Positions 4,661 through 37,556 of a DNA stretch of 64,000 nucleotides are shown one piece after another (positions within the stretch are counted from its first letter, which is position 1; every line of letters begins with the position of its first letter). Made by a program: the position numbers and the translations under genes. The notes under the pieces are model-generated. The model had not been told where the DNA came from. It saw nothing but the letters and a program-made list of their open reading frames with translations, and did not search any database. The DNA comes from Pseudomonas flexibilis (GTDB lineage: Bacteria; Pseudomonadota; Gammaproteobacteria; Pseudomonadales; Pseudomonadaceae): NCBI RefSeq assembly GCF_000802425.1, contig NZ_JRUD01000016.1, positions 1 to 64,000 on the forward strand. Direction: 5' to 3'.

Positions 4661-6420
4661 CAATAAATCTCCATGAAGCTGCTGTTCTGGGCGGTGCGGC
4701 CCTCCAGCGGCTCGTTGTGCAGGGCGTGCATGAGCGCCCAGGCGAGGTCGGCGTGGCCGGTCTCGTCGGTGCGCCCGGCGGTATAGGTCATCTGGCGGCC
4801 GCTGGCCGTCATGGTCTTGCGGATGGCCATCAGGCTGGAGGCCATGTCGGTCCAGCCGGCATCGAACTCCAGGCGGCCGCTCCTGATCACGTCCCAGGTC
4901 TTCATCACCAGGCGCGTCTTCACCTCGGGCGAGTAGCTGAAGGTGGTCAGGCCGGGGAAGAATTGACGCACCAGCTGGGCGACGCCGGTGCCCATGCCGG
5001 TGGTGTCGATGCCGATGTAGGTCACCCAGAAGCGCTGGGTCATCTGGCGGATGAACCCGGCCTGGGCGGCGAAATCCATTCCCCTGAACTGGTGCCGCTC
5101 GATAATGCGGAACTTGCCGCCGGGCACCATCGGCGGCGCGACCACCACCAGGCCGGCGCTGTCGCCGGACTCGGCCGGGTCATAGCCGATCCACACCGCA
5201 CGATCACCGAACGGGCGCTGCGCGAACGGCTTGTAGTCCTCGGCCCAGGCCTCCCAGCTGTCGATCATGCAGGGCTGCAGCAGCGTCAGCGGGAAGATGC
5301 TCGCGCCGTCGTCGACGAACTCGCACATCAGCAGGTTGGCCCACTGTTCGGCGTTGTACTCGAAGCGCAGCTCGTCCAGGTTGAACAGGTCGCAGCCGCG
5401 GGCCTCGGCGTCGAGGATGGTCACGATCTGTCGCCAGATCTTGTCGTCGCACAGCCGCCCCTGGCTCAGGGCGTCGTGGCTGACATCCAGCTTGATGTGC
5501 TGGGCGCTCGGCTTGCCCTTGTTCAGCCGCTCGCCAGTCCACCACTTGTAGGCCTCGTGCCCCTTGCTGGAGGGGGTCGAAAAGTAGGTCTTGCGCCACT
5601 TCTTGTGCAGCGCCATGCCCGAGGCGACCTTGTTCAGCTCCTCGAACTTGTGGGTCCAGAAGAATTCGTCGAAGTAGAAGTTTCCCGACCGCCCCTGGGC
5701 GGTGCGGTAGTTGGTGCCCAGAAAGTGCAGCTCGGCGCCGTTGGCCAGGATGATCGGGTCGCCGGTCAGCTGGCGGTCCAGGACCTCGCGCGCCATGTCC
5801 TGCATGTAGTTCTTGAACTGGTGCGCCTGCGCCTTGCTGGCCGAGAGGAAGATCTGGTTACGCCCGGTGATCGCCGCATCAAGCAGCGCCTCGCGGGCGA
5901 AGTAGTACGTGGCGCCGATCTGGCGCGACTTCAGGATCATGCGCGTGCGCTGATTGCCCGCCCGGTACCAGTCCTTCTGGTAGTCGAAGCAGGTATCGAG
6001 AAACGCCTCCTGCAGCTTCTCGATGTCCTCCTCGCTGAACTCGTTACGCTTGGGCTGCTTCTTCGGCCCCTCGTTGCGCGCGGCGATGTTCGGGTTCAGG
6101 TCGGTTTCGGTGCCGCCGCCCTGGTAGCGCTGGATGCGCGCCTGGCGCTCCAGCTGGCGGTGCAGCAGATCGATTTCCTTGAAGTCGCTGCCGGTCTTCG
6201 GGTCCTTGAGCAGCAGTTGCACCAGCCGGGCTTCCAGGGCGCCGCCAATTCGTTCTAGGGTATCGGCCCGGTCCCATTCGTCCCGGCCCTTCCAGGAATG
6301 GACGGTCTTCTCGGGCTCGCCCAGGAAGTCGGCAATGTCGGTGATGCGCCAACCCGTCCAGTACAGGAACTTGGCCTGCCGGCGGTTATCGCGGATGGGG
6401 ATTGCTACGGTCTCAGTCAT
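4660..6420 (-). CDS. P: Terminase ATPase/large subunit, P2 gpP family
   Basis: 586 aa packaging motor. An N-terminal helix-turn-helix region (about 10-55, WRITDIADFLGEPEKTVHSW) precedes an ATPase with a Walker A variant KSRQIGAT at 164-171 and Walker B FYFDEF at 248-253. The C-terminal nuclease fold begins at GYDPAESGDSAG, with D414 as a likely metal ligand. It works with gpM and the portal to cut cos and fill the capsid. The ATG lies exactly 45 nt from a late-promoter dyad and has no Shine-Dalgarno sequence. Confidence 0.96.
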   Translation of the reverse strand: MTETVAIPIRDNRRQAKFLYWTGWRITDIADFLGEPEKTVHSWKGRDEWDRADTLERIGGALEARLVQLLLKDPKTGSDFKEIDLLHRQLERQARIQRYQGGGTETDLNPNIAARNEGPKKQPKRNEFSEEDIEKLQEAFLDTCFDYQKDWYRAGNQRTRMILKSRQIGATYYFAREALLDAAITGRNQIFLSASKAQAHQFKNYMQDMAREVLDRQLTGDPIILANGAELHFLGTNYRTAQGRSGNFYFDEFFWTHKFEELNKVASGMALHKKWRKTYFSTPSSKGHEAYKWWTGERLNKGKPSAQHIKLDVSHDALSQGRLCDDKIWRQIVTILDAEARGCDLFNLDELRFEYNAEQWANLLMCEFVDDGASIFPLTLLQPCMIDSWEAWAEDYKPFAQRPFGDRAVWIGYDPAESGDSAGLVVVAPPMVPGGKFRIIERHQFRGMDFAAQAGFIRQMTQRFWVTYIGIDTTGMGTGVAQLVRQFFPGLTTFSYSPEVKTRLVMKTWDVIRSGRLEFDAGWTDMASSLMAIRKTMTASGRQMTYTAGRTDETGHADLAWALMHALHNEPLEGRTAQNSSFMEIY

Positions 6421-19320: not shown

Positions 19321-19374
19321 ACCCCACCCAGGCGCCGCCGGCGACGGCGGCCTACCCACTCAAGGAATCCAATC

Positions 19375-19722
19375 ATGGCCAAGCAAGAAGCCACCGCCGC
19401 CCTCGACAAGACCGAGGCCAAGAAGAACCCCAACCAGGAAACCGTGCCCCTGGACGGCCCCATCCAGCGCGGCGAGCAGACCATCACCGAGGTCCTGGTG
19501 CGCAAGCCCATGGCCGGCGAGCTGCGCGGCGTCTCGCTCCAGGACCTGATCCAGATGGACGTGATGGCCCTGCGCAAGGTGCTGCCGCGCATCACCATCC
19601 CCACCCTGACCGAGAACGAGATCAGCCGCATGGACCCGGCAGACCTGACCCAGTTGGGCGTCGCGGTGACCGGTTTTTTGGTGCAGAAGCGCTTCAAGGA
19701 GGAGGCCTCCCTCACCGCGTAG
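19375..19722 (+). CDS. E: Tail assembly chaperone E, P2 gpE family
   Basis: 115 aa. It matches phage tail assembly protein E (ETVPLDGPIQRGEQTITEV, LVRKPMAGELRGVSLQDL, VGVAV-type C-terminal region). It carries the frameshift site TTTTTTG at 19674-19680 that yields a longer product. The leader before it resembles the repeated leaders of the early genes (a hairpin, then CCTACCCACTCAAGGA). Confidence 0.92.
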   Translation: MAKQEATAALDKTEAKKNPNQETVPLDGPIQRGEQTITEVLVRKPMAGELRGVSLQDLIQMDVMALRKVLPRITIPTLTENEISRMDPADLTQLGVAVTGFLVQKRFKEEASLTA

Positions 19723-29104: not shown

Positions 29105-29330
29105 CCACAATGACTACCAGGAGCAGATGACCGACGCGGCCCGGCAGTTCGTGGCCCGCCACCGCGACGAACACCTGGGCAACGACCAGCAGTTGTTCGA
29201 ACGCACCACGGACTACCTGGTGACCTCGCTGGACGTGCCGGCCTTCATGGCGCCGCGCCTGGCGCATTTGGCCATGAGCCCAGCCCCGGACGAGCCCGTC
29301 GCCGAGCACTGGGACAGCGCCACCGCTTAA
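29097..29330 (+). CDS. Small hypothetical early phage protein
   Basis: 77 aa, acidic and helical (MDNHNDYQEQMTDAARQFVA...). It overlaps the ogr end by eight bases. No family recognised; position between ogr and the replication gene suggests an early function. Confidence 0.65.
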   Translation: MDNHNDYQEQMTDAARQFVARHRDEHLGNDQQLFERTTDYLVTSLDVPAFMAPRLAHLAMSPAPDEPVAEHWDSATA

Positions 29331-29403
29331 CCCGAACCCCTTGAGCCCATGCCCGCCTTTTCGTGGGCAGGGGATTGCTACGCCCGAATTTCAGGTGCAA
29401 CCC

Positions 29404-29634: not shown

Positions 29635-32360
29635 AGAGCATGGACCGCGAGATCCGCGCCGAGGTGCTGCGCCGCCTGGAGAGCGACTACGGCCTGCGCC
29701 CCGTCACTGGCACCCACTACCTGCGCAAGGGTGAATGCCCGGCCTGCGGCAAGCGCGAGCTGTATTCCCGCCAGGACGAGCCCTGGTTCATCAAGTGCGG
29801 CCGCGAGAAGAATTGCGGCCAGCAGTGGCACGTCAAGGAAATCTACGAGGACCTGTTCGACGACTGGAGCAAGCGCGCCCCGTCCACCGAGCAGGACCCG
29901 AAGGCCACCGCCATGGCCTACCTGCAGTTCGCCCGCGGCTTCGACCTGGGCCTGATCGGCGGCTGGTTCACCCAGGAGAACTACTGGGACCGCCAGACCA
30001 GTGCCGGCAGCGCCACGGTGCGCTTCGCCCTGGAGCACGGCGGCTACTGGGAGCGGCTGATCGACCGGCCGCACCGCTTCGGCAAGATGAAGGCCCGCTT
30101 CGCCCCCGGCCAGAGCCCGCGCGGCTACTGGTGGTGCCCGCCCAGCGTGGATCTGCTGGCCGTGGACGAGCTGTGGATCGTCGAGGGGATCTTCGACTGC
30201 ATCGCCCTGCTCCACCACGGCATCGCCGCCGTGTCGGCCATGAGCAGCGCCTACTACCCGGAGGAATCGCTCAAGGCCCTGGTGCGGCAACGGGCCGACG
30301 CCGGCCAGAAGCTGCCGAAGCTGGTCTGGGCGCTGGACAACGAGCCGGGAGCCCATCGCTACACCCGCAAGCACGCCCGACTGGCCCGCGAGCTGGGTTT
30401 CCGCTGCGAGGCGGCGCAGATCCCGCAGCGCGACCGCAAGGCGGACTGGAACGACCTGCACCAGCGCTGGCAGTTCATCGACGACGCCGAAAAGCGCACC
30501 GAGCAGATCGAGCGCGACCTCAAGGAGGCCCGTCACCACGGCGCACTGCTGCTGGCTGAGAGCGCCGCCGAAAAGGGCGCGCTGATGTACGAATGGCGGG
30601 AACACCATGAATTTCATTTCGTGTACGAGCGCCGCCTGTACTGGTGGAAGCTCGACCTGGAGAAGCTGAACAAGGCCGTGCAGACACTGCGCGACAGCGA
30701 CCATTCCGAGGACCGTTCCCTCACAGACCGCCAGTTGCGTGACAAGGCCCTGCGCCAGTGCGGCGCGGTGGTGGAGATCGCCAACTGTTCCTTCCAGGCC
30801 CTCTATTACCTGCGCAACGAGGTCACCGACGAGGCCTGGTTCTACTTCCGCATTGATCTGCCCAACGACACCACCGAGCGCAGTGCATTCACTGCCGGCC
30901 AGGTCGTCGCGGCCAGCGAATTCAAGAAGCGCCTGGCCCACGCCGGGAAGGGCGCGATTTTCACCGGCTCAGGAGGCCAGTTGGATCGCATCATGAAAGA
31001 GCAGCTCAACAACATTAAATCCGTCGAAACCATCGACTTCATCGGCTACAGCAAGAACCACGGCGCCTATGTGTTTGGCGACCTGGCCGTGCGCGGCGGC
31101 ATCGTCGAGAAGGCCAACGACGAGGATTACTTCGAGTTCGGCAAGCTGCGCCTCAAGACGCTGCAGAAGTCGATTCGCCTGGAGCTGGCCGTGTCCGATG
31201 AAGGCTACCGCCGCGAGTGGCTGGACTGGCTGTGGACCTGTTTCGGCCCCAAGGGCGTCATCGCGCTGGCCTTCTGGTTTGGCTCGCTGTTCGCCGAGCA
31301 GATCCGCGCGGAGTTCCAGTCCTTCCCGTTCCTGGAAGTGACCGGCGAGGCCGGCGCGGGTAAGTCCACCCTGCTGATGTTCCTGTGGAAGCTGTTCGGC
31401 CGCCCGGACGAGGAAGGCAAGGACCCCTCGAAGATGTCCAAGGCCGGTCTGCGCCGCTGGCTCGCCCAGGTGAGCGGCATGCCGCTGGTGATGCTGGAAG
31501 CCGACCGCAGCGACGTGGCCGGCAGCGGCCACGGCAAGGCGTTCGACTGGGACGAGTTCAAGCCCATGTTCAACGGCGGCTCGCTGGGCGTGACCGGCGT
31601 GAAGACCGCCGGCAACGAGACCCACGAGCCGCCCTTCCGGGGCACGCTGGTGATGAGCCAGAACGCGGCGGTGCAGGCCTCCGAGGCGATCATGACGCGG
31701 ATCGTGAAGCTGCATTTCGTGCGCCCGGAGGTCACCAGCACCAGTCGCGCGGCGGCGGACAACCTCAACCACCTGAGCGCCCGCGAGGTGTCGCACTTCC
31801 TGCTGATGGCGGTGAAGAAGGAAGGCGCCGTCCTGGAGCTGTTCCGCGAGCGGGTGAAGGTCCACGAGACGACCCTGCGCGGCCTGCAGCAGATCCGCGT
31901 GGAGCGAATCATCAAGAACCACGCGCAGATGATGGCCCTGGTGGACGCCCTGCGCCTGATCGTGCCCCTCACCGACCACCAGCTGGCCAGCGTGCAGCAG
32001 ACCCTGATGGGCATGGCCCTGGAGCGGCAGGCGGCGATCAACGCCGACCACCCACAGGTGGCCGAGTTCTGGGAGGTGTACGAGTACCTGGAATCGCTCG
32101 GCGACGGCCCGATGGTGAACCACAGCAAGAAGGACGAGCTGATCGCCATCAACCTCAACGAGTTCTGCGAGCGCGCCGCCGAGCACCGCCAGAAGCTGGC
32201 CGACGTGAACACCCTGCGCGACCTGCTGCGCGAGAGCCGCCGCCACAAGCTGATCGAGGCCAACAAGAGCGTGGACAGCGCCGTGCGCGCGCACTGGAAC
32301 CTGAAGAACCCCCTCAACCAGCGCTGCACCACGGTGAAGTGCTGGGTGTTCAAAAAGTGA
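29631..32360 (+). CDS. Replication protein: zinc finger, Toprim primase and helicase
   Basis: 909 aa. Cys 36, 39, 56 and 62 (C-X2-C-X16-C-X5-C) form a zinc finger of primase type. A Toprim fold follows with VDELWIVEG (E185) and ALDNEPG (D236, N237, E238; the second acidic position is Glu instead of the usual Asp). The C-terminal half has a Walker A GEAGAGKST at 572-580 and a likely Walker B near PLVMLEADR (about 618-626). It should prime and unwind phage DNA. P2 uses the nicking protein gpA instead, for which no gene was found here. The start at 29631 overlaps the preceding stop; the longer 1003-codon frame is rejected. Confidence 0.88.
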   Translation: MKSMDREIRAEVLRRLESDYGLRPVTGTHYLRKGECPACGKRELYSRQDEPWFIKCGREKNCGQQWHVKEIYEDLFDDWSKRAPSTEQDPKATAMAYLQFARGFDLGLIGGWFTQENYWDRQTSAGSATVRFALEHGGYWERLIDRPHRFGKMKARFAPGQSPRGYWWCPPSVDLLAVDELWIVEGIFDCIALLHHGIAAVSAMSSAYYPEESLKALVRQRADAGQKLPKLVWALDNEPGAHRYTRKHARLARELGFRCEAAQIPQRDRKADWNDLHQRWQFIDDAEKRTEQIERDLKEARHHGALLLAESAAEKGALMYEWREHHEFHFVYERRLYWWKLDLEKLNKAVQTLRDSDHSEDRSLTDRQLRDKALRQCGAVVEIANCSFQALYYLRNEVTDEAWFYFRIDLPNDTTERSAFTAGQVVAASEFKKRLAHAGKGAIFTGSGGQLDRIMKEQLNNIKSVETIDFIGYSKNHGAYVFGDLAVRGGIVEKANDEDYFEFGKLRLKTLQKSIRLELAVSDEGYRREWLDWLWTCFGPKGVIALAFWFGSLFAEQIRAEFQSFPFLEVTGEAGAGKSTLLMFLWKLFGRPDEEGKDPSKMSKAGLRRWLAQVSGMPLVMLEADRSDVAGSGHGKAFDWDEFKPMFNGGSLGVTGVKTAGNETHEPPFRGTLVMSQNAAVQASEAIMTRIVKLHFVRPEVTSTSRAAADNLNHLSAREVSHFLLMAVKKEGAVLELFRERVKVHETTLRGLQQIRVERIIKNHAQMMALVDALRLIVPLTDHQLASVQQTLMGMALERQAAINADHPQVAEFWEVYEYLESLGDGPMVNHSKKDELIAINLNEFCERAAEHRQKLADVNTLRDLLRESRRHKLIEANKSVDSAVRAHWNLKNPLNQRCTTVKCWVFKK

Positions 32361-32366
32361 ACCCCA

Positions 32367-32410
32367 GGCGCGGCAACGCCCGGCCCAACTACCCAAGGAG
32401 AAGCACCATG
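32367..32410 (+). repeat. Repeated leader, copy 1: hairpin plus ribosome-binding site
   Basis: GGCG-CGGCAA-CGCC hairpin, then ACTACCCAAGGAGAAGCACC and ATG. Identical over 44 bp to 32633-32676. It precedes the 71-aa gene. Confidence 0.8.
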
Positions 32411-32623
32411 CCCCAACAGCTCTACGCCGAGATCCGCAAGACCAGCCGGTACGCCCACCAGGCGCAGCGGCAACGCGAGACTGGCCCCTATCCCTTCCCG
32501 GTAACCCTCGCCCCGGAGTGCGACGGCTACGTGGTGCAGGGCGGGTACGGTGGCCAGTACCGACTGGAGGACGTGCACCTGATCGTCCTGCATGAAGACG
32601 GCACCCAGATCCGCATCAGCTGA
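32408..32623 (+). CDS. Small hypothetical early phage protein
   Basis: 71 aa (MPQQLYAEIRKTSRYAHQAQ, then beta-rich YVVQGGYGGQYRLEDVHL). AAGGAG precedes the ATG as part of the repeated leader. Function unknown. Confidence 0.7.
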   Translation: MPQQLYAEIRKTSRYAHQAQRQRETGPYPFPVTLAPECDGYVVQGGYGGQYRLEDVHLIVLHEDGTQIRIS

Positions 32624-32632
32624 AACCCACCG

Positions 32633-32676
32633 GGCGCGGCAACGCCCGGCCCAACTACCCAAGGAGAAGCACCATG
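32633..32676 (+). repeat. Repeated leader, copy 2: hairpin plus ribosome-binding site
   Basis: Identical to copy 1 over 44 bp; flanking CCG/CGG bases extend the stem to seven pairs around the CGGCAA loop. It leads the 112-aa gene. Confidence 0.8.
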
Positions 32677-33012
32677 TTGAACCCGCAAATCCAGGAAGCC
32701 CTGAACAAGGTATTCGCCGAGCAATCCCACCGCCCGCGCCGCCGTCAGGAGGGGATACAAGCGCTGAATCGCCTGGTCCCCATCAGCCTGAACGACACCG
32801 GCCAGAGCCGGGTGATCGGCCGCTTCCTGCTCGGCCTGTGGAACGGCCAGGCCTACCCCTTCGACCTCACCGAGCTGCGCGGCCTGGACAGCGAGCTGTA
32901 TGCCGACTGCCTGGCCGTGCTGCAGCTGGACCGCCTCGGCGAGCGCGAGGTGCACGAGTACGTCAAGGGCGGCTGGGCCGTGTGGGACCAGCTGCGCAAG
33001 CGCTGCCATTGA
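32674..33012 (+). CDS. Hypothetical early phage protein, 112 aa
   Basis: A soluble helical protein (MLNPQIQEALNKVFAEQ, LLGLWNGQAYPFDLTELRGL, VHEYVKGGWAVW). It resembles a conserved small family seen in Pseudomonas prophages, whose name I cannot give with certainty. Start fixed by AAGGAG of the repeated leader. Confidence 0.7.
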   Translation: MLNPQIQEALNKVFAEQSHRPRRRQEGIQALNRLVPISLNDTGQSRVIGRFLLGLWNGQAYPFDLTELRGLDSELYADCLAVLQLDRLGEREVHEYVKGGWAVWDQLRKRCH

Positions 33013-33020
33013 CCGTCACG

Positions 33021-33070
33021 CCCTGGAGCGGCAACTCCGGGGCGGACCCTACCCAAGGAGAAACACCATG
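33021..33070 (+). repeat. Repeated leader, copy 3: hairpin plus ribosome-binding site
   Basis: GGAG-CGGCAA-CTCC hairpin, then CCTACCCAAGGAGAAACACC and ATG. Compared with copies 1 and 2 the third stem pair changes from C-G to A-T on both sides, with the loop kept. Confidence 0.75.
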
Positions 33071-33181
33071 AACCGACTGCTGAACCGATTCACCGGCTGG
33101 ATCGCCCAGGGCCTCGGCCTGGGTGCGCTGGTGACAGCGGCCAACTACGTGCCCGATCTGCTGATGCTGTTTGCGCGCTGA
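33068..33181 (+). CDS. 37-aa small membrane-associated protein
   Basis: MNRLLNRFTGWIAQGLGLG followed by a hydrophobic or amphipathic stretch ending LLMLFAR. AAGGAGA upstream gives a strong start. Function unknown; it may work with the membrane protein encoded next. Confidence 0.6.
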   Translation: MNRLLNRFTGWIAQGLGLGALVTAANYVPDLLMLFAR

Positions 33182-33191
33182 GGAGCCAACC

Positions 33192-34127
33192 ATGCACACC
33201 CAACCCATTGGCGCCCACATGGCCCAGCTGCTGACCCTGATGGCCGTTGCCCTGTGTGGCGTGACGGCCGTATCGGTCTGCCTGGCCATGCTTGCGCTGA
33301 TCGAGGACCGCCTGCTGGCCGGGCTGTTCGCCGGCGCGGCGGTGGTCCTGGACCTGATCAAGTACGCGGCCTGGCCGCTGGCCCTGGGGCTGCTCGCCGT
33401 GGGGCGCCACGGCAGCGCGGTGCTGATGATGGTCTGCGCCCTGATCCTCGGTGGCGTGTCGGGCTGGGCGACCTATGACCGGCTGATGTCCTCGATGCTC
33501 GCCGGTCGTGCCCAGCACCAGGCGATCCAGGAGCAGCGCATCACCGACATCGAGGCCGCCCGCCGTGCCGATCAGGCCCGCCTGACCGCGTTGGATGCCG
33601 AAGCCCGTTCCGTCCAGGAACAGGCGGCGGCCATGCGCGAGCGCGGCATGGTCAGCAAGGCGCTGCTGCTGGAGACCTCGGCCCTGCGCCGGCTGGATGA
33701 TCAGCGGGAACAGGCCCGGGCTCGGCTGGAGGCCAGCTCCCGCGAGCTGACCGCGCTGCGCTCGCAGCCGGCCAAGGCGGCCAGCCTGCCGGCGCAACTG
33801 GCCACCCTCCTCTGCCTGGGTTTCGCGGCGGCGCTGGAGATCGTTCCCGCGCTGATTTTCGCGGCTCTGCGCACGGCCGGGCCTGTTCCGCAACGACAGG
33901 AACCGGCGCAGGAGCACGCCGAGGAAGACGCCGGCGAGCACAGCGAAAACGCGCTGCTCGGTGAATTGCTGGCCATCGTCGGGAAGCTGGAGCCGGGAAC
34001 GCGCTACGGCACCCGCGACTTCGCCAAAGCATTGCGCATCGGCAACAGCCGCGCGGTGGCGGCATTCGGTCTCGCACTTGAGCGCGGGGCCATACGAAAA
34101 ACGCCCGCCGGCTACGTGGTCGCGTAA
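33192..34127 (+). CDS. Membrane protein with coiled coil and C-terminal winged-helix-like domain
   Basis: 311 aa from MHTQPIGAHMAQLL, with AGGAG upstream. Three or four membrane spans occur within about 10-100 (LLTLMAVALCGVTAVSVCLA; LIKYAAWPLALGLLAVG; VLMMVCALILGGV). A coiled coil follows (about 110-195), another hydrophobic span (LLCLGFAAALEIVPALIFAAL, about 200-220), an acidic linker and a small C-terminal domain YGTRDFAKALRIGNSRAVAA that looks like a winged helix. No family name recognised. A DNA-binding end on a membrane protein would allow tethering of phage DNA; this is inference. Confidence 0.65.
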   Translation: MHTQPIGAHMAQLLTLMAVALCGVTAVSVCLAMLALIEDRLLAGLFAGAAVVLDLIKYAAWPLALGLLAVGRHGSAVLMMVCALILGGVSGWATYDRLMSSMLAGRAQHQAIQEQRITDIEAARRADQARLTALDAEARSVQEQAAAMRERGMVSKALLLETSALRRLDDQREQARARLEASSRELTALRSQPAKAASLPAQLATLLCLGFAAALEIVPALIFAALRTAGPVPQRQEPAQEHAEEDAGEHSENALLGELLAIVGKLEPGTRYGTRDFAKALRIGNSRAVAAFGLALERGAIRKTPAGYVVA

Positions 34128-34152
34128 TCGGCAGGCATTCGAGAGAAGTGGC

Positions 34153-34204
34153 GCGGGGAGCGGCAACTCCCCGACGCCGAACCTACCCAAGGAGAAACAC
34201 CATG
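34153..34204 (+). repeat. Repeated leader, copy 4: hairpin plus ribosome-binding site
   Basis: GGGGAG-CGGCAA-CTCCCC hairpin, then CCTACCCAAGGAGAAACACC and ATG. Same loop as the other copies with a stem of six pairs. Confidence 0.75.
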
Positions 34205-34456
34205 AATCAACCCAAGGTAAGCGGCGCCAAGGCTAACACAGCCGGCTCCGTGGAAATCATCGCTCGGTTCACCACCGGCACCTACGTGGCCAGGGCAATC
34301 GGCCTCAAATGCTCGGCCAGCAACACCATCGGCGCCCGCCAGGCCGCCGAGGCGGTTTGCACCAAGCTCGGGCTGGACACAGCATTGCTCCAGGAACAGC
34401 CGGACCTGCTCGGCAATCAGCAATCGCTGTTCGTGCATCCGGGGGTGGGGGTATGA
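34202..34456 (+). CDS. Hypothetical early phage protein, 84 aa
   Basis: MNQPKVSGAKANTAGSVEII followed by ARFTTGTYVARAIGLKCSAS. No domain recognised. Start fixed by AAGGAG in the leader repeat; the end overlaps the next gene by four bases, which suggests joint use with the reductase-like protein. Confidence 0.7.
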   Translation: MNQPKVSGAKANTAGSVEIIARFTTGTYVARAIGLKCSASNTIGARQAAEAVCTKLGLDTALLQEQPDLLGNQQSLFVHPGVGV

Positions 34457-35529
34457 ACGCTTTGGTCAGTCACGAACCAATCAAAGCCGAAAACTGGCCC
34501 TGGAGCCCTACCAACGAACTGGCCGGCGATCAGCACAACATCGTCAGCGTCTCGGGCGGCAAGGACAGCACCGCCACCCTAGCGCTCGCCATAGCTCAGG
34601 ATGCGCCGAACCTGCGCGGGGTTTTCGCGGACACCGGCAATGAGCACGAGCTGACGTTGGAATACGTTGATTATCTGGAACAGGCCACTGGCGTGACGAT
34701 CGAACGCCGCCGCGCCGACTTCACCCAACAGATCGCACGTAAACGGCAGTTCATCGATACCAAGTGGCGCGAGCAGGGCATCAGCGATGCCACTGTCGAT
34801 GCGGCCCTGGAAGTGCTTCAACCAACTGGCGTTCCATTCCTGGACCTTTGCCTCTGGAAGGGCCGATTCCCCAGCCGTAAAGCACAGTTCTGCACTGAGG
34901 AACTGAAACGCAACGTGATCGTTGAGCAGGTCATGCTCCCGCTTATGGACGGCCAGAACATGATTCTGTCCTGGCAAGGCGTTCGCCGTGACGAGTCATT
35001 GACCCGTCGGTACCTGCCAGAGTGCGACTATGTGGGCGAGGGGCTTTACAACTATCGGCCCATCTTGAAATGGGACGTGGCTGCCGTCTTCGAGGCCCAT
35101 CGCTACATGGGCATCAAGCCCAATCCGCTCTACATGCTGGGAGCCAGCCGTGTCGGCTGCATGCCGTGCATCAACTGCCGCAAATCAGAACTGCGCGAAA
35201 TTGCCGCCCGCTGGCCTGAGCACATTGACCGGATCGAGCGCTGGGAGGATCTGGTGCGCCATGCCAGCAAGCGCGGCGGCGCAACTTTCTTCGCAGGCGC
35301 CAATGCCAAGCATCAGCAGGGTTCCATCAAGGAAATGTCCGCCGCACAGATCGTGGACATCGCCAACATCCGCCAGGCCGTCGAGTGGTCCCGCACCACA
35401 CGCGGCGGGCTTCAGTATGACCTGATCGCCAGCGATGGCGAGGAGGATGCCGGTGCATGCTCAAGCGCCTATGGACTGTGCGATGAGCTGCCGCCGCCGG
35501 CTGGTATGGCCCAAGTGGTGGAGGCATGA
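34453..35529 (+). CDS. PAPS reductase/ATP-pyrophosphatase-like phage protein
   Basis: 358 aa. P-loop of the PP-loop family SGGKDST at 34-40, a second segment FCTEELK at 146-152 (C147), and a Cys cluster C236, C239 and C242 (CMPCINC). This set is shared with PAPS reductases and DndC-like proteins that activate a substrate with ATP and move sulfur, often with an iron-sulfur cluster. No dnd partner genes (dndB/D/E) are present, so DNA phosphorothioation is not supported. Such stand-alone genes are common in phages and their role is unclear. Coupled to its neighbours on both sides. Confidence 0.82.
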   Translation: MNALVSHEPIKAENWPWSPTNELAGDQHNIVSVSGGKDSTATLALAIAQDAPNLRGVFADTGNEHELTLEYVDYLEQATGVTIERRRADFTQQIARKRQFIDTKWREQGISDATVDAALEVLQPTGVPFLDLCLWKGRFPSRKAQFCTEELKRNVIVEQVMLPLMDGQNMILSWQGVRRDESLTRRYLPECDYVGEGLYNYRPILKWDVAAVFEAHRYMGIKPNPLYMLGASRVGCMPCINCRKSELREIAARWPEHIDRIERWEDLVRHASKRGGATFFAGANAKHQQGSIKEMSAAQIVDIANIRQAVEWSRTTRGGLQYDLIASDGEEDAGACSSAYGLCDELPPPAGMAQVVEA

Positions 35530-35729
35530 ACATGCGCACCCGTCCCCCGATGGCCAGCAAGCGGCTGGACCTGCCCCATATCTGCGACATCTGCGGCAAC
35601 GCCCGTTCCACCGGCAAGCATGCCCGCTGCAGCAAGCTGCGCCAGAAGCGCAAGGACGCCACCTGGGCGGCGATCATGGCCGAGCAGGAAGCGGTGCGCC
35701 GCCTGAGCAAGGAGGCTCGCCGTGGTTAA
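35526..35729 (+). CDS. Small CxxC hypothetical protein
   Basis: 67 aa, basic, with CDIC (about 20-23) and a later Cys (KHARCSKLRQKRKDA), so possibly a small zinc-binding protein. It overlaps the reductase-like gene by four bases. Confidence 0.65.
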   Translation: MNMRTRPPMASKRLDLPHICDICGNARSTGKHARCSKLRQKRKDATWAAIMAEQEAVRRLSKEARRG

Positions 35730-36380: not shown

Positions 36381-37556
36381 ATGAGCAAATACGAAGGCGT
36401 CGAAGTGCGCGGCAACTCCGTCCGCGTGTACTTCCGCTACCAGGGCGAGCTGTGCCGCGAGCCCGTTCCCGGCGCGGCAACGCCGCAAAATCTGGCCCAT
36501 GCCGAGCGGCTGGTGGGGCTGATCAACCATGAGATCCGGCACGGGACATTCAGCTACGCGCGGCATTTCCCCGAGTCGCCCCGCGTCGCGTCCAACACCC
36601 TGGGGCATTACATCGACCTGTGGCTGGGCATCAAGCGCAACGAGCTGGCCCCCTCGGGTTTCCGCGTCTACAAGGGCCGCGCCGAGCGGTATATCCGGCC
36701 GCGCTGGGGCGCATTCCAGGCGGATCGCATCGACCACCTGGACCTGCAGGTGTGGGTTCAGACCGAGCTGATGCCGGTGCTGCACAACAAGACGGTGCGG
36801 GAGATCGTCGGGCTGCTGCGGCAGATCTTTCTGCTGTATCGGATGCGCAACCGCGTGGCGCACGATCCCACCGAGGGGCTACGGGTACTGCTGCCAGACC
36901 CGGACGATCCCGATCCGTTTGACCGGCGCGAAATCGCGGCGATCCTGGGCACGCCAACCGAGCGCGGGCAGGAACGCAACCTGGCGCAGTTCATGATCTG
37001 GGCGGGGCCTCGCGTCTCCGAGGCGATTGCGCTGGCCTGGGAGGACGTGGTGGATCTGGAGGCCGGCATCGTGCGGCTGCAGCGCTCGCAGGTGCGCGGG
37101 CACTACAAGGCCACCAAGACGCGTCGCTCCGTTCGCGAGGTGAAGCTGCTGCGCCCGGCGCGGGAGGCGCTGCAGGCGCAGGCGCCGTACACCCGCGACC
37201 TGCCGCCGGTGGCGGTACCGGTGACCGAGCGCGACAACAAGACGGTGCGGGTGCGGCAGCTGCGGTTCGTGTTCCACAACAGCAGCACCGGCGCGGCGCA
37301 CACCAGCTCGGACATGCTGCTCAAGGGCTGGTGGCGGCCGCATCTCAAGGCCGCTGGCGTGCGCTATCGCGGCCCGAACAACTGCCGGCACACCTTCGCC
37401 AGCCAGTCGCTGAGCACCGGCGCGGTGCCGCTGGAGTGGATCGCCGACCAGATGGGCCACACGTCCACGGACATGATCCGCAAGCACTACGGCAAGTGGA
37501 TCAGCGAGGACGGCCCGGACTTCGCCGGCATCCTGGAACACGCCCTGCAGCTGTAA
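36381..37556 (+). CDS. int: Tyrosine-recombinase integrase
   Basis: 391 aa from MSKYEGVEVRGNSVRVYFRY. An N-terminal arm-binding/SAM-like part (1-175) precedes the catalytic domain with R211 (GPRVSEAIAL), K244, box II NNCRHTF with R336, H360 (MGHTS) and nucleophile Y370. The first position of the usual H-x-x-R is Asn (N333). It catalyses integration at the tRNA-Leu 3' end; the gene lies about 160 bp from attR. Its start is preferred over the ATG at 36339, which lies too close to the terminator. Confidence 0.94.
   Translation: MSKYEGVEVRGNSVRVYFRYQGELCREPVPGAATPQNLAHAERLVGLINHEIRHGTFSYARHFPESPRVASNTLGHYIDLWLGIKRNELAPSGFRVYKGRAERYIRPRWGAFQADRIDHLDLQVWVQTELMPVLHNKTVREIVGLLRQIFLLYRMRNRVAHDPTEGLRVLLPDPDDPDPFDRREIAAILGTPTERGQERNLAQFMIWAGPRVSEAIALAWEDVVDLEAGIVRLQRSQVRGHYKATKTRRSVREVKLLRPAREALQAQAPYTRDLPPVAVPVTERDNKTVRVRQLRFVFHNSSTGAAHTSSDMLLKGWWRPHLKAAGVRYRGPNNCRHTFASQSLSTGAVPLEWIADQMGHTSTDMIRKHYGKWISEDGPDFAGILEHALQL

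Follow-up and report, generated by a model that had tools for sequence, protein, structure and literature searches.

Four small genes in the early operon of a Pseudomonas prophage are each preceded by the same kind of leader, made up of a hairpin with a CGGCAA loop, an A/C-rich linker ending in CTACCC, the Shine-Dalgarno (SD) sequence AAGGAGA, and an ATG. Comparison with related leaders identifies the hairpin as a structured RNA element with compensatory covariation. We think it probable, though well short of certain, that the leader is a cis-acting mRNA cassette for translation initiation that replaces translational coupling.

A P2-like prophage carries four leaders in its early operon

The window analyzed here, a 64,000-nucleotide stretch of Pseudomonas flexibilis DNA (family Pseudomonadaceae), contains a prophage of the P2-like type (Peduoviridae). 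Among named phages, this prophage is closest to Dobby and Sirocco of the genus Citexvirus (~75% match over half of a 7-kb query). In its early operon, cox-, CII-, and Ogr-like genes come first, followed by a toprim primase/helicase gene (PHROG 1139; 29638..32360, start approximate), a cluster of small genes, a gene resembling PAPS reductase, and the integrase gene. The leaders sit between the primase/helicase and integrase genes; in P2-like and phi3-like leader phages, the primase/helicase gene is directly upstream of the leader cluster. The leaders, the genes behind them, and the primase/helicase gene are all on the forward strand, and each leader precedes one small gene.

Leader 1 (class I; 32358..32410; 62.9 bits) contains the hairpin GGCG-CGGCAA-CGCC (32367-32380; loop at 32371), extended by CC/GG (32364-32365/32382-32383) past a mismatch, and is followed by the SD AAGGAG (32395-32400) and the ATG (32408) of gene A (32408..32623; 71 amino acids [aa]; PHROG 18597/21559, function unknown). 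Leader 2 (class I; 32624..32676; 65.6 bits) has the hairpin CCGGGCG-CGGCAA-CGCCCGG (32630-32649; loop at 32637), an SD at 32661-32666, and an ATG at 32674, where gene B begins (32674..33012; 112 aa; DUF7673/PHROG 6694); the phi3 relative of gene B has no such leader. Leader 3 (33016..33070; 64.3 bits) carries the 10-bp hairpin CGCCCTGGAG-CGGCAA-CTCCGGGGCG (33019-33044; loop at 33029), an SD at 33055-33060, and the ATG (33068) of gene C, which encodes a 37-aa small hydrophobic protein (33068..33181). A leaderless 311-aa gene at 33192 begins 10 nucleotides (nt) past the gene C stop. Leader 4 (class II; 34148..34204; 62.1 bits) has CGGGGAG-CGGCAA-CTCCCCG (34154-34173; loop at 34161) plus an outer helix, an SD at 34189-34194, and an ATG at 34202. 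It precedes gene D (34202..34456; 84 aa), which opens with a shared N-terminal tag, MNQPKVSGAKANT, and holds the window's single copy of a second class II element, AGGCTANCAC (34230..34239). The PAPS-reductase gene overlaps the gene D stop and is thus coupled to it.

All four copies are therefore present as a preliminary description of this DNA had claimed. Covariance model R1 matched the window exactly four times, at these leaders (E of about 1e-18 to 1e-17), and the next match (16.9 bits, ~45 bits lower) lies inside the integrase open reading frame (ORF) without a ribosome-binding site. The sequence CGGCG-CGGCAA-CGCCG at 36470-36485, in the integrase reading frame and without a ribosome-binding site, is probably a chance occurrence. 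The same description had taken a hairpin before gene E (19322-19375) for a looser copy, which did not hold up: that hairpin has a GCGA tetraloop, a different SD context, and no R1 match. The GC-rich hairpins that relatives have in this gap carry loops unrelated to one another; in P2-like phages (loci L509, L510, and L511-L540), such hairpins, with varied loops, separate the homologues of the tail-tube gene and gene E. On these grounds, we rejected the hairpin at 19331-19355 as a family member; it is an ordinary hairpin between cistrons.

The 79-aa gene preceding the primase gene has a conserved hairpin leader of another kind, both in the window (29315-29394) and in other loci (L001, at 5883-5959; L042, L122, L231, and L237). 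In several phages, it reads ACCCAGACCCGC-CTGCCA-GCGGGTTTGGGG, followed by AATTCGAGGT near the start codon.

Covariation supports an RNA hairpin

The stems of the four window copies vary: copy 1 has 4 bp plus 2 past an A.C mismatch, copy 2 has 7 bp, copy 3 has 10 bp, and copy 4 has 7 bp plus the outer helix. The window alone gives thin support for covariation: copy 1 is 98% identical to copy 2, and neither of these two outperforms shuffled sequences in folding (z = +1.7 and −0.5, respectively), whereas copies 3 and 4 do (z = −3.4 and −3.2, respectively).

We therefore turned to relatives. A search of IMG/VR that specified only the loop, SD, and start, leaving the stem unspecified, returned at least 179 unique leaders, the majority with at least 6 pairs flanking the loop. 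Among 41 diverse leaders, all 7 of 7 stem pairs were altered on both sides, and 93.6% of the cells were paired, compared with 63.2% after shuffling; sliding the arms of the same alignment lowered pairing to 29 to 47%. RNAalifold recovered the leader helix unaided. In a 63-sequence set selected on pairs 1 to 3 only, pairs 4 to 6, which are independent of that selection, were 84 to 92% paired, against 46 to 59% expected. As a blind test for the hairpin, we recruited sequences by SD-ATGCAA-AGGCTANCAC, ignoring stem and loop. Of the 55 nonredundant cases, 50 had a hairpin, versus 15 after shuffling; in the remaining 5, a hairpin with a mismatch could be discerned by eye. The earlier argument that paired changes on the two sides of the stem reflect an RNA structure is thus solid once relatives are added. 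The outer stem does not favor RNA over single-stranded DNA, as G.U pairs (48 cells) are no commoner there than A.C mismatches (75 cells).

The loop follows a wider consensus

CGGCAA had been described as an invariant loop. It occurs in all four window copies, but the wider consensus is [C/U]NGCN[A/G], with loop positions 1 and 6 being C.A or U.G and almost never a Watson-Crick pair. In 293 leaders with CNGCAA loops, the second base was G in 262, T in 26, A in 4, and C in 1, although recruitment by CGGCAA inflates the share of that loop and the viral contigs are redundant. Divergent loops such as UAGCCG, UAGCAG, UUACAG, UGGCCG, and UGGCAC occur in phi3, phita81A/2, UFJF_PfPro, Mu-like D3112, MP38, and Gregale. 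Another scan of IMG/VR yielded at least 20 copies of UUGCAG, plus others. Exceptions are AGGCAA, GTGCAA, TTGCAC, and a few 7-nt loops.

We examined positions 1 and 6 with four equal scans on the GGAG/CTCC stem, counting matches that carry the class II tag, with redundancy kept. Among the matches listed, the tag accompanied 60 of 101 C..A and 23 of 36 U..G loops but 0 of 65 C..G and 0 of 8 U..A loops. Protonated C.A and U.G wobbles are isosteric, which suggests that the loop resembles an NGCN tetraloop closed by a wobble pair. Leaders within one phage tend to share their loop (95% of pairs concordant versus 80% when shuffled; 0 of 2,000 shuffles), while their 6-nt stems agree in 8%; this concordance may stem from common descent or from recruitment by CGGCAA, and phages L063 and L243 are exceptions that mix CGGCAA and CTGCAA.

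The hairpin is strictly placed before a start codon

The stems, mostly 6 to 13 bp around a mostly hexanucleotide loop, start a median of ~10 nt past the nearest stop trinucleotide. Leader-bearing sequence totaling 1.15 Mb contained 168 CNGCAA hairpins of at least 6 bp, of which 153 lie no more than 70 nt upstream of an SD and start codon, compared with 1 of 28 hairpins with six permuted loops. The distance from loop to ATG is variable (24 to 46 nt), and the linker is 76% A/C. We found no promoter-like sites and no sense-strand terminator at the leaders. Position and covariation together bear out the claim of a structured, repeated RNA element upstream of the ribosome-binding site in an early phage operon.

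Leaders were found only in temperate phages of Pseudomonadaceae

Scans of public collections yielded at least several hundred further leaders, at 2 to 5 copies per phage, all in Pseudomonadaceae and in temperate phages of the P2-like, phi3-like, and Mu-like (D3112) types. Dobby and Sirocco carry the leader; D3112 and phi3 carry a divergent form. About 40 of the 398 Pseudomonadaceae genomes sampled (~10%) contained it, and ~367 other gammaproteobacterial genomes gave no matches. Where contigs assigned to other taxa matched, the stem was absent save in one 4-bp case on a metagenome-assembled contig. Model matches at 30 to 40 bits are in part chance SD/hairpin combinations and in part loop or SD variants.

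Rfam 15 recognized only three tRNAs in the window and nothing relevant in 32300-34260 at an E of ≤5, and we found no earlier account of the leader in the open-access literature. The leader is apparently undescribed. We regard it as an RNA family that is new in a practical sense because, besides the lack of an Rfam match, it differs from the start-associated sequences of mycobacteriophages in its constant part and lacks the promoter and terminator of T4-type cassettes (both discussed below).

Unrelated genes share the leader, and some share a second element

The leader is independent of the identity of the gene behind it. The proteins encoded behind the 293 leaders fall into 37 clusters. About 30 of these are credible and have no relation to one another; they include DUF7673, Arc-like, DUF2786, DUF551, small membrane, and zinc-finger proteins, along with many unknowns and a primase-helicase fragment. 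Most of these genes begin with ATGCAA. In L040 and 13 other leaders, the gene is a separate primase-helicase-like fragment (260 to 280 aa, with a P-loop) directly after the full-length primase gene.

Class II leaders are followed by an N-terminal tag of ~15 residues, ending in [K/E/Q]-A-[T/S/N/I]-T, on unrelated protein bodies. All 34 nonredundant tags use GCT for the Ala residue, a choice made for 15% of the Ala codons in these phages' long ORFs. The 10-mer AGGCTANCAC is fixed, although the preceding codons vary. In leader-bearing loci, 53 of 56 copies of AGGCTANCAC lie just downstream of an SD and ATG. The fixed codon and 10-mer, together with this position, point to a second nucleotide-level site within the class II reading frame, possibly an RNA or DNA site.

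One zinc-finger family (CDICG..RST) occurs both with and without the leader. All 15 of 15 copies with leader and tag start 58 to 77 nt past the upstream gene, whereas all 25 measurable copies of the 26 without it overlap or abut that gene (−11 to +3 nt); no measured copy of this family showed a third state, a wide gap without a leader. In this family, the leader thus takes the place of an overlapping start. The window's own zinc-finger gene (35526-35729; PHROG 10699) starts by overlap, and Dobby and other phages have versions with leader and tag; the window gene and its Dobby counterpart form a natural pair with and without the leader. Within the window, gaps before leader genes are 47 to 74 nt, and the gap before the gene at 33192 is 10 nt; the PAPS-reductase-like gene overlaps its neighbor, as does the zinc-finger gene at 35526. 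This contrast in gaps is partly arithmetical, as the leader itself fills about 55 nt. The simplest reading of these arrangements is that the leader would provide an independent translation start where coupling by overlap is missing. The suggestion that the leader belongs to a module by which genes are shuffled also gains some support from the roughly 30 unrelated families behind it and from the zinc-finger family that has both leader and tag in some phages and neither in others.

Discussion

We infer that the cassette acts in translation, with a promoting effect, and that a factor reads its loop. In the long mRNA of the early operon, a GC-rich hairpin whose NGCN loop is closed by a wobble pair would form just past the stop of the preceding gene, followed by a short unpaired A/C-rich linker, a full SD (AAGGAGA), and an ATG, usually ATGCAA. 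By folding away, the hairpin would insulate the intercistronic spacer and let 30S subunits load on the linker and SD. The downstream gene could then start translation alone rather than by overlap coupling, so that any accessory gene might be placed behind the cassette. The fixed loop, which implies something more than insulation, would most likely be read by a component common to Pseudomonadaceae hosts.

Predicted folding of 90 leaders in native context gave an SD/start accessibility of 0.604 when intact, 0.567 with the stem broken (P of about 5e-6), and 0.587 with the hairpin deleted. The gain is small and needs no conserved loop, so it fits insulation but falls short of a whole explanation, and we rejected masking and unmasking of the SD as the mechanism because the predicted effect is too small. 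In E. coli, the 30S platform uses, and only partly unfolds, a structured upstream module with a short single-stranded proximal site (PMC3936740). In the same standby model, long hairpins near the ribosome-binding site can reduce translation (PMC3936740), which makes the sign of the cassette's effect uncertain. A candidate loop-reading factor probably exists and is perhaps host encoded. The restriction to Pseudomonadaceae and the lack of a phage gene common to all leader phages favor a host component, and we hold this view with modest confidence. A broader proposal, to which we give less than an even chance, is that the wobble-closed NGCN hairpin is the site of a trans-acting factor, from host or phage, that would make early accessory genes a single translational regulon across unrelated temperate phages of Pseudomonadaceae, with class II leaders and AGGCTANCAC forming a two-part element.

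A regulatory switch is possible, and its specific form, an operator through which a phage-encoded RNA-binding regulator (a Com/mom-like activator or a coat-protein-like repressor) would switch early accessory genes together, strikes us as unlikely. Conservation of the loop far beyond the stem, loop concordance within phages, and the Ogr/Delta-like zinc finger that P2-like leader phages share beside the operon would all suit it, but the concordance may reflect descent and biased recruitment, and some phages mix loops. By tblastn, moreover, the phi3, phita81A/2, and D3112 types lack Ogr-like and CII-like genes. A co-occurrence search for a phage-encoded partner found that the P2 and phi3 types share only the primase and that nothing is shared with D3112, which lacks that primase; with class II leaders present in phi3-, phita81A/2-, and D3112-type phages that have no Ogr-like gene, no phage-encoded partner is common to all. 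That primase, encoded immediately upstream and the one gene common to P2- and phi3-type leader phages, could suggest a single-strand priming or replication hairpin. The sites follow start codons rather than replication, however, and D3112-type phages have the leader without the primase, leaving this idea highly improbable.

The intercistronic placement after a stop codon, the stable GC stems, and the variable-loop hairpins that these phages have in the gene E gap would also fit an mRNA processing or stabilizing hairpin, as in the intercistronic hairpins of T4 and T7, acting as an RNase III/E site or exonuclease barrier. We think this quite unlikely, as RNase III usually acts on stems longer than the 6 to 13 bp seen here, neither the conserved loop nor the fixed position ahead of the SD would be expected, and leaderless genes simply overlap. 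Very unlikely, in our judgment, is a recombination joint, a shared DNA segment for swapping accessory gene bodies in which the hairpin is incidental or acts as DNA. Identical leaders and tags do precede unrelated bodies, one body occurs with and without the cassette, and P2-like and Mu-like phages have leaders in common. Homology alone, however, predicts conserved sequence rather than compensatory stems with only the loop, SD, and AGGCTANCAC fixed; the early promoter and terminator of T4-type cassettes are absent; and exchange may be a consequence and not the function.

The translation-start cassette resembles several known systems in part. The Mu Com/mom translational operator is a hairpin near the ribosome-binding site of one phage gene. 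In P2-type leader phages only, the likeness extends to the presence, within the operon, of a gene for a small Ogr-like zinc-finger protein; many genes are involved here rather than one, D3112- and phi3-type leaders occur without an Ogr-like gene, and no Com homologue was identified. Structured standby sites (PMC3936740) share the order of hairpin, short single-stranded proximal site, and SD, but standby function needs no conserved loop. The T4-type PeSL mobile regulatory cassettes, as described in the paper that cites the original reports (Arbiol 2010 and Comeau 2014, cited in PMC4503421), consist of a promoter and a terminator. On that description, they share with the leader a short intercistronic stem-loop tied to accessory-gene shuffling and differ in that the leader has no early promoter or terminator and ends in an SD and start codon.

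The closest analogue is the SAS/ESAS repeats of cluster K mycobacteriophages, whose function is unknown (Pope et al. 2011, PMC3203893; PMC12699233). They are repeated at the start codons of some of the nonstructural genes, from many families, in one phage group and have an SD-like core; about half have inverted repeats just upstream, with details that vary by subcluster, and they are absent from the host genomes examined. Both systems place many copies before unrelated genes, here 2 to 5 per phage and about 30 families. The constant part of SAS is a 13-nt sequence at the start codon, GGGATAGGAGCCC, in place of which the Pseudomonas leaders have AAGGAGANNCACCATG. ESAS consist of imperfect, sequence-conserved 17-nt inverted repeats with a variable spacer of 4 to 13 nt, with no covariation described, whereas the Pseudomonas leader has a constant loop and a free but covarying stem, mostly of 6 to 13 bp. 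The leader further differs in its in-ORF AGGCTANCAC site and in spanning P2-like, phi3-like, and Mu-like phages of Pseudomonadaceae.

A translation-start cassette of this kind would explain how phages add unrelated accessory genes to an operon and keep them translated. The leader also offers an easy sequence marker for finding accessory genes, among which there may be some that counter host defenses, and it makes the question raised by SAS/ESAS, the role of start-associated repeats, testable in a tractable host.
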